From: Candidatus Binatia bacterium
Lineage (GTDB): Bacteria > Vulcanimicrobiota > Vulcanimicrobiia > Vulcanimicrobiales > Vulcanimicrobiaceae
Assembly (NCBI GenBank): GCA_035544215.1
Contig: DATKHY010000001.1
Coordinates: forward strand, 124,001 to 188,000
Length of the DNA: 64,000 bases
Reading direction: 5' to 3'
The notes beneath the pieces were generated by a model. That model was given only the letters and a program-made list of their open reading frames with translations, did not search any database and was not told where the DNA came from. Numbering within the stretch: the stretch's first letter is position 1; each line of letters starts with the position of its first letter. Positions 1 to 924 of the stretch are shown here, in pieces. The translations under genes were made by a program, and so were the position numbers.

Positions 1-385
1 CGCGGGCGGCGCCGGACCCGTTGCGCTCGCCGCCCGCCATCGGATGCGTGGCGACGAAGTTCGCGACGCCGGCGGCGGCCGCGACGAGCGGCGCCTTCAC
101 GGACGCGACGTCCAGCACGAGCGCCGGCGCGCGGGGCCGGCCGGCCAGCCGCTCGAGCTCGCGCAGCGTCGGCTCGAGGTGCGTCGCCAGCACCAGCGTG
201 TCGGCTTCCCTGGCGAGCGTCTCGGGCGCCACGGCGGCGTCGATCGCACCGACTTCGGAGGCCGCGTCCAGCGCCGCGGGATCGACGTCGTAGCCGATCA
301 CGTAGACGCCGTTGCCTCGAGCGTGAAGGCCGATGGATCCGCCCATCAGGCCGACGCCGAAGATACCGAGCACCCGGCCGATCAC
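1..385 (-). CDS. tyrA: Prephenate dehydrogenase (TyrA), 5' part only
   Basis: NAD(P)-dependent oxidative decarboxylation of prephenate to 4-hydroxyphenylpyruvate in tyrosine synthesis. The gene runs off the left edge; about 128 codons are present. The GTG start at 385 gives an N-terminus of the form MIGRVLGIFGVGLMGGSIGL, with the Rossmann GxGxxG motif at about residues 10-15. Further on, DVASVK (about residue 90) and HPMAGGERNGSG (about residue 110) are typical of the TyrA family. The start overlaps the aroH stop (GTGA), so translation is probably coupled, and both genes should share the attenuator-like leader upstream of aroH. The C-terminal dimerisation domain lies outside the window, so any additional ACT domain cannot be judged. 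Confidence 0.93.
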   Translation of the reverse strand, partial: MIGRVLGIFGVGLMGGSIGLHARGNGVYVIGYDVDPAALDAASEVGAIDAAVAPETLAREADTLVLATHLEPTLRELERLAGRPRAPALVLDVASVKAPLVAAAAGVANFVATHPMAGGERNGSGAAR

Positions 386-813
386 GACGCGCGCACCAGA
401 TCGGGCCGAAGCGTCGCCGCGCCATCGAGATAGACGTGCTCGATTTCATGCGCGTTCCGCGCGGTGTTCACGTGCATCAGCACGCGGATGCAGCGGCCGA
501 GCGCTCCGGGCACGTCGACCTCGGAAAAATGCAACATCGGAATGTGGATCCATCCCATTTCGCGCGCCGCGAGCGCGGGGAAGCACGCGCGCAGGTCGGG
601 CGTCAGGCTGAAGAGCACGGAGGCGATGTCGTCGAGATCTATCGCGTTGCGCTGCGTCATCTCGCTCAGGAGCCGCTTCGTGGCGCGCGCGATCGCAGGC
701 GTGCTGTCGGCGTCCGCCGTGATGGCGCCCCGGATGCCTCGGAAAACACGAACCCCCGCCGGGTCGGCGGGGGTTTGCGTTGTCGATTGCTGTTTCTTGC
801 CAGTACCGTGCAA
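382..813 (-). CDS. aroH: Chorismate mutase, AroH class
   Basis: Claisen rearrangement of chorismate to prephenate, the branch point to Tyr and Phe. The protein matches the monofunctional AroH fold known from Bacillus subtilis: FRGIRGAIT near the N-terminus, SLTPDLRACFPALAARE in the middle, GRCIRVLMHVNT, and HVYLDGAATLRPDL near the end, where the conserved Arg and Tyr of the trimer active site fall. No ATG or GTG is available at the expected N-terminus. I chose TTG at 813 because GGTGAGG lies 7-8 bases upstream and overlaps the leader-peptide stop. This adds about 20 residues before the conserved core, and they contain the sequence of a 10-bp GC hairpin. The start is uncertain; the function is not. 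Confidence 0.92.
   Translation of the reverse strand: MHGTGKKQQSTTQTPADPAGVRVFRGIRGAITADADSTPAIARATKRLLSEMTQRNAIDLDDIASVLFSLTPDLRACFPALAAREMGWIHIPMLHFSEVDVPGALGRCIRVLMHVNTARNAHEIEHVYLDGAATLRPDLVRAS
751..775 (-). terminator. GC-rich hairpin, candidate attenuator of aroH-tyrA
   Basis: Perfect inverted repeat AACCCCCGCC / GGCGGGGGTT (10 bp) with a 5-nt loop. On the reverse strand it is followed by TTCGTGTTTTCC, a weak T-rich tract. It lies 50 bases after the stop of the aromatic leader peptide and just before the conserved part of aroH. Position and shape fit an intrinsic attenuator. The poor U-tract and the placement inside the 5' coding part of aroH (if TTG at 813 is the start) leave room for a translational rather than transcriptional role. 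I found no convincing alternative antiterminator pairing by eye. Confidence 0.6.
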
Positions 814-824
814 AACGCTTTCCC

Positions 825-884
825 TCACCAACCTCGAAGGCGGCAATAGTAGAACGAATACCCGTACGAGCCCAACGTCCACAT
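825..884 (-). CDS. Aromatic-rich leader peptide, 19 residues
   Basis: An ATG-to-TGA reading frame encoding MWTLGSYGYSFYYCRLRGW. Seven of nineteen residues are aromatic: Trp2, Tyr7, Tyr9, Phe11, Tyr12, Tyr13 and Trp19. It sits between a promoter-like sequence and a GC hairpin, directly upstream of chorismate mutase and prephenate dehydrogenase. This is the classical layout of amino-acid attenuation, in which ribosome stalling at scarce aromatic codons changes downstream folding. The stop codon (TGG TGA GGG) overlaps the Shine-Dalgarno-like GGTGAGG of aroH, so translational coupling is also possible. No Shine-Dalgarno precedes the ATG; with the proposed -10 the transcript would start almost at the ATG (leaderless). 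The function is inferred. Confidence 0.72.
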   Translation of the reverse strand: MWTLGSYGYSFYYCRLRGW

Positions 885-892
885 GATGTTCA

Positions 893-924
893 ATTATGCA
901 ACCACACCTAGTGGTGCTTGTCAA
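893..924 (-). promoter_or_regulatory. Candidate sigma-70 promoter for leader-aroH-tyrA
   Basis: Reading the reverse strand, TTGACA (924-919) is a perfect -35 match and CATAAT (898-893) a 5/6 match to -10. The spacing is 20 bases, longer than the ideal 17. Transcription would start around 885, at or next to the leader-peptide ATG. Confidence 0.5.
901..915. promoter_or_regulatory. Small palindrome between -35 and -10, possible operator
   Basis: ACCAC-N5-GTGGT is a perfect 5-bp inverted repeat lying entirely inside the spacer of the proposed aroH promoter and in the short gap to the divergent glcD. A repressor bound here would block the promoter. It does not match the E. coli TrpR or TyrR operator as I know them. 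A short palindrome could also occur by chance. Confidence 0.3.

Follow-up and report, generated by a model that had tools for sequence, protein, structure and literature searches.

The window, that is the whole stretch of 64,000 nucleotides analysed here, comes from an uncultured soil bacterium, the Eremiobacterota genome G000, in which it spans positions 124001-188000 of contig C1. On its minus strand, at a locus between a divergent glcD-like gene and aroH, a promoter, a 19-codon leader ORF rich in aromatic residues and a hairpin follow each other in that order before aroH and tyrA. In window coordinates, the features are as follows:

919..924, minus strand: promoter -35 element TTGACA, identical in 24/24 related attenuators and also found in leaderless congeners
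896..901, minus strand: promoter -10 element TTGCAT, with a spacer of 17 and an extended TG at 904-903
885..890, minus strand: predicted transcription start, deduced from the distance between -10 and AUG
825..884, minus strand: leader ORF MWTLGSYGYSFYYCRLRGW (ATG 884, stop TGA 827-825), recognised by its conservation and uniqueness
846..866, minus strand: putative regulatory Tyr/Phe codons Y7, Y9, F11, Y12 and Y13 (Met = 1), where a ribosomal A site leaves region 2 free for region 3
822..833, minus strand: region 2, GGUUGGUGAGGG, the 5' strand of the antiterminator, overlapping the leader stop and the aroH Shine-Dalgarno site
762..773, minus strand: region 3, CCCCCGCCGACC, the 3' strand of the antiterminator, identical with the terminator left arm plus loop
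751..775, minus strand: terminator hairpin AACCCCCGCCG-ACC-CGGCGGGGGTT, 11 bp of which 9 are G-C, loop ACC
741..750, minus strand: U-rich tail CGUGUUUUCC, which also encodes the start of the AroH core
382..813, minus strand: aroH, type I chorismate mutase (Pfam CM_1, E 8.9e-44), start TTG 813
2..385, minus strand: tyrA, prephenate dehydrogenase (Pfam PDH_N, E 2.5e-19), extending past the window edge

The two genes overlap by 4 nt, the tyrA frame runs on to C1:123600, and the next gene is convergent, so that the operon consists of aroH-tyrA only. An alternative aroH start, GTG 828, overlaps the leader stop as GTGA. Prephenate dehydratase (PF00800) was detected in 0/11 genomes of the genus, several of them at least 95% complete, while all control genomes were positive; the operon would therefore supply mainly Tyr. 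The missing enzyme in these 11 congeners may reflect Phe auxotrophy or the presence of an unrelated enzyme.

Regarding the promoter, the sequence-only reading had paired TTGACA with CATAAT. The -35 element is indeed there, at 924-919, but CATAAT was rejected as -10, since its spacer would be 20 bp long and its sequence is not conserved; it lies three bases off the real element, TTGCAT, which stands at 17 bp. The 24 aligned loci follow the pattern TTGACA-N17/18-(TGn)TTnnAT, both TTGACA and the extended TG being present in 24/24. Collecting every TTGACA on the contig to derive a -10 consensus for the genome yielded nothing, because most such sites fall in genes. In 23/24 aligned related attenuators the start codon comes 7-12 nt past the -10 element, and the leader transcript is therefore expected to begin about 0-5 nt from the AUG, which would make the leader mRNA itself nearly leaderless. 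The attenuator proposal needed a transcription start that was not downstream of 825, and the predicted one at 885..890 agrees with this. Between -35 and -10 lies an inverted repeat, ACCAC-N5-GTGGT (window 901-915, minus strand), a possible operator, although the extended TG accounts for part of the repeat and it is not clearly conserved.

The leader ORF, at 884-825 on the minus strand, contains 2 Trp, 4 Tyr and 1 Phe, exactly as first read. Among the 2043 ATG ORFs of 10-30 codons counted in 375 kb of the G000 genome, both strands included, it is the sole one with at least 7 aromatic residues, and its aromatic density is likewise unmatched; at the six-frame aromatic frequency of 5.1%, the probability of at least 7 aromatics in 18 residues is 1.6e-5.

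The proposal had also been made dependent on conservation of the short ORF and hairpin upstream of aroH in relatives, and this was borne out. Among the 12 genus members with an aroH match, eight (G000, G005, G001, G003, G014, G010, G016, and G017) share one arrangement: first TTGACA, then a short aromatic ORF with GGTGAGG where it ends, and finally the hairpin. Their leaders are MWTLGSYGYSFYYCRLRGW, MWSLGSYGYSCYYFRLRGR, MSTSRSYWYSFYCLRRKRR, MWRCYLSFCNRHTRSW (shared by G003 and G010), MWMCYLSFCNRHTRSW, MWRCYISFCYRLSRGW and MTSRRYPYSYPRPSKGSVR, and Tyr is the only aromatic residue common to all of them. The spacers differ among the eight while leader and hairpin persist, the sequence outside the leader, region 2, and regions 3-4 being poorly conserved. 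In the other four (G002, G007, G011, and G012) the promoter lies directly ahead of aroH and there is no leader; in the AroH tree these leaderless congeners form one side of a branch with support 83/87, a pattern that would fit a single loss or a single gain. In G007 (L011), a 5-codon ORF, MGTVW*, overlaps the aroH ATG (ATGGTAG) and is perhaps a remnant or a minimal leader. G008 (L179, C10:169114-169260) retains a leader, MWTWTMYANSFFRDLLQDR, and the hairpin, with the aroH frame breaking right after the latter; no aroH match was found in the G008 genome, and this attenuator might be a relic or have been re-used.

The GC-rich hairpin announced before the chorismate mutase and prephenate dehydrogenase genes is present at 775-751, and it is paired in all members. 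It is followed by the tail CGTGTTTTCC, whose U-tract is interrupted (UUCGUGUUUU) and which is the most T-rich (7 of 10) among 254 comparable stems on the same strand of the 335-kb contig; intrinsic terminators appear rare, and not obviously enriched, in the G000 genome. The sequence-only reading had placed the hairpin within aroH on condition that TTG 813 is the start. This holds more generally: in the seven aroH members examined, no usable start codon was found between the hairpin and the AroH core, and the aroH starts sit at, or just past, the leader stop. The position of TTG 813 is the sole ATG/GTG/TTG start in G005 and G017, the GTG being out of frame in G005, and the sole starts of the G003 group are TTG/GTG codons overlapping the leader end. 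The hairpin is therefore aroH coding sequence, read as P-A/V-D/V-P/S-A-G-V, and the AroH N-terminal peptide predicted from this region contains QSTTQTPADPAGVR. The overlap of the leader stop with the aroH ribosome site had also been seen correctly. A terminator usually lies ahead of the first structural gene, although the mechanism does not need this; here, the start codon and ribosome site of aroH stand upstream of the terminator in every member, which is an unusual layout. In the right arm, the third positions of the codons GCG GGG GTT never vary, even though two of these, GGG and GTT, are minor codons. By comparison, 40/44 degenerate codons for invariant residues of the aroH core do vary, so that the constraint is on the RNA. 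The trpD leaders of G015 and G017 (HWCVHWC / RWCVNWC) likewise have an open frame from a GTGA overlap through the hairpin into trpD; an ATG does exist past the hairpin in these two.

Regions 2 and 3 are complementary at 11/12 positions and, since region 3 is made of the left arm and loop of the terminator, antiterminator and terminator exclude each other, even if the antiterminator is weak in G016. In the eight-sequence alignment A2, 96.6% of the cells in the antiterminator columns 52-63 / 112-123 are paired, as compared to 30-55% when slid, and the terminator is 100% paired. The outermost antiterminator pair switches from G-C to A-U, both sides being changed; covariation is thin, with one double-change pair and most pairs invariant. 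For each of the three outermost antiterminator pairs, the 3' partner falls within the terminator loop, where terminator formation imposes no constraint. Pairing to region 3 beats at least 286/300 shuffles in 6/8 members; the result is modest for G017 (22/300 shuffles as high), and in G016 the antiterminator does no better than shuffles. In the G003 group, the antiterminator folds with an unremarkable energy.

A dependence on ribosome position was observed when stalls were mimicked by folding the nascent RNA with the ribosome-covered part removed. In G000, region 3 holds 0.77 of the region 2 bases at every A-site position through codon 15, and this pairing falls to zero in all eight members once the stop codon occupies the A site. 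Region 2 is held by region 3 at all ribosome positions through the Tyr/Phe codons in G000, G005 and G001, likewise in G017 once the ribosome has started, and from about the Ser-Phe codons in the G003 group. A stall on the Tyr/Phe codons would thus free region 2 and completion of the leader would cover it; the Trp codon adjoining the stop is not placed in this way. Folding finds a 1:2 protector hairpin in the G003 group and in G017; it is absent in G000, G005, and G001, the G000 RNA favouring the antiterminator when no ribosome is present.

These results bear on the claim that the leader senses all three aromatic amino acids. Trp was discarded as a sensed residue: it is missing from the G017 leader, and a ribosome stalled at the ill-placed last Trp codon would sit on region 2, thereby favouring termination. 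The leader would sense Tyr, together with Phe, and sensing of all three aromatic amino acids is not supported. Within the genus, no leader was found ahead of trpE or DAHP synthase, nor was any other convincing attenuator found in the G000 genome.

Beyond the genus, a first covariance model built on the eight aroH leaders recovers the same cassette across the bacterial family, and a second one, built on 25 loci, gives matches in 65/117 genomes of the class at E <= 0.01, these E-values being rough and the weakest matches doubtful. An exact pattern search with region 2 and the terminator recovered only the G003 group, because the spacers vary. The cassette shares the promoter, a GGUCGGUGAGGG-like region 2, and the region 3-4 hairpin, and it precedes the following genes:

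PDT-ACT-DAHP synthase fusion before aroH (pheA-aroF-aroH): leader MLTDRSLAFAYYYYFCRPPGR and others
EPSP synthase (aroA): aromatic leader MSACAFWYRLYYGYTGFVSVEFGAA
anthranilate phosphoribosyltransferase (trpD): Trp leaders
acetolactate synthase (ilvB): leader VLVLVVLI
ketol-acid reductoisomerase (ilvC): leader LVVLVSVLLAVLI
threonine dehydratase (ilvA): leader LVIIAGSII
homoserine dehydrogenase: leader ITTTMTTT
sulfite reductase: leader LLCCCLL
NMT1-type ABC binding protein: leader MCMCC
kinase-ACT-DNA-binding fusion: leader TLATIT

The leader residue tracks the product of the downstream gene, which argues strongly that attenuation is what these leaders have in common. Where the cassette precedes pheA, aroA, or ilvB, the terminator lies upstream of the gene's own ribosome site, so that the aroH version is probably derived, its antiterminator strand having been co-opted as a ribosome site. 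Such a family-wide use of one attenuator cassette appears undescribed.

Such product-matching leaders, of the Cys, Thr, Leu/Val/Ile and aromatic types, were seen at L243-L249 (G025), L252-L255 (G022), L256-L258 (G117), and L201/L202/L204, and a Cys leader also precedes an AhpC-type peroxiredoxin. At L181 and L262, prephenate dehydratase and DAHP synthase are fused in one frame, upstream of aroH in relatives. The TLATIT-led protein (L209:87-1364, minus strand, in G084; L261:807-2084, plus strand, in G083) joins an amino-acid-kinase and ACT domains to a C-terminal winged-helix DNA-binding domain (Trans_reg_C) and is possibly an aspartokinase turned regulator.

Taken together, conservation, mutually exclusive helices and a family of homologous attenuators back the attenuator reading, and we consider, with a probability of roughly 0.83, that the aroH-tyrA leader works as a ribosome-mediated transcription attenuator responding to tyrosine and, with it, phenylalanine. 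Transcription would begin no more than a few bases away from the leader AUG. When charged tRNA-Tyr/Phe is ample, the leading ribosome would reach the UGA and cover region 2, leaving region 3 free to form the 3:4 terminator about 135 nt past the leader AUG, and transcription would end within the first aroH codons. When Tyr or Phe is scarce, the ribosome would stall on codons 7-13, the exposed region 2 would pair with the emerging region 3, no terminator would form, and aroH-tyrA would be transcribed. Since the aroH Shine-Dalgarno site is masked while the antiterminator is paired, the model has to include a refolding step: behind the polymerase, the 3:4 hairpin, being the more stable one, could form again and expose this site in region 2, and aroH ribosomes would then translate through the hairpin as codons.

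A compatible refinement of this tyrosine-tuned attenuator is that the same stalled ribosome acts on both layers, by transcription attenuation and by release of the Shine-Dalgarno site. Region 2 indeed holds both the antiterminator strand and this site in all eight aroH members; however, with pheA-type leaders the gene has its own ribosome site downstream, and we regard the double control as tentative, clearly short of even odds. In a purely translational mechanism, leader and aroH would be coupled, with the ribosome that finishes at the UGA re-initiating or a stalled one uncovering the aroH start, and the hairpin would be just a structured coding region or a translation brake. The leader stop within the aroH ribosome site (the GUGA overlap, with the stop inside the Shine-Dalgarno site) fits such coupling, as do the starts of the G003 group at the leader end and the upstream pairing that covers the Shine-Dalgarno site of this group when no ribosome is present. 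Nevertheless, the RNA-level conservation of the hairpin and U-rich tail, the out-of-frame GTG of G005, and the homologous pheA, aroA, and ilvB terminators, whose position wholly upstream of the genes' own ribosome sites points to an action on transcription, speak against it; besides, coupled re-initiation predicts more AroH at ample Tyr, opposite to the need. This explanation is thus unlikely, and the earlier suggestion that control might be translational survives as a possible second layer, the evidence favouring transcription attenuation first.

That the leader is bound by a protein or ligand (riboswitch, T-box, TRAP-like), with the ORF incidental, is very improbable: nothing specific argues for it except the small inverted repeat of the promoter, no T-box or other Rfam model scores above its cut-off here, the weak matches being chance-like, and a binding domain fits poorly with the low conservation seen everywhere except in the leader, region 2 and regions 3-4. 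A mere coincidence of an aromatic-rich ORF and a common hairpin resembling a terminator, which the unexceptional single-sequence folding (z -1.33) and the marginal aromatic enrichment of the G017 leader taken alone (P 0.06) might suggest, is hardly credible for an ORF unique in 375 kb that persists in eight congeners despite changing spacers and belongs to an attenuator family.

The locus provides sequence evidence of classical attenuation in Eremiobacterota, a phylum for which a literature search found no account of attenuators or riboswitches, and with the cassette the amino acid that limits a given operon can be predicted from sequence in hardly culturable organisms. The aroH version raises the questions of how ribosomes translate a gene whose first codons are its own terminator, and whether control of transcription and control of translation have merged there. 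In its widest form, the proposal would combine an antiterminator strand that is the aroH ribosome site and a coding terminator, one stalled ribosome controlling both transcription and translation, with an uncultured phylum that runs much of its Tyr/Phe, Trp, branched-chain, Thr and Cys biosynthesis through one homologous promoter-to-terminator cassette, swapping only the leader peptide; to this conjunction we give not quite an even chance.

Ribosome-mediated attenuators of trp, pheA and pheST are known in Proteobacteria, and the present one shares with them the residue-rich leader, the alternative antiterminator and terminator, and the stalling logic. It differs from them in that the antiterminator strand and the terminator lie within the ribosome site and coding frame of the structural gene itself, the mRNA of the leader would be nearly leaderless, and the operon is aroH-tyrA. 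While the principle of the mechanism is textbook knowledge, a stop signal inside the controlled gene is a new variant. The nearest functional parallel, compared by function, is the AroR leader before aroF in Corynebacterium glutamicum, likewise a leader peptide attenuating an aromatic-pathway operon; according to the account given in PMC11802643 (citing Neshat 2014), its Phe-Tyr-Phe peptide responds to Phe and not to Tyr, and, unlike here, it precedes a DAHP synthase gene and belongs to another phylum. The actinobacterial trp, leuS and ilvB attenuators are also GC-rich and use leader peptides in high-GC bacteria, the ilvB leader ORF even overlapping the terminator, whereas no multi-aromatic leader before a chorismate mutase is described there (PMC1262725). 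Finally, the pheA-aroF-aroH, aroA, trpD, ilv and cys leaders of other Eremiobacterota represent the same cassette, found with one covariance model, and the pheA, aroA and ilvB members differ from the aroH attenuator in the placement of the terminator ahead of the gene's ribosome site.
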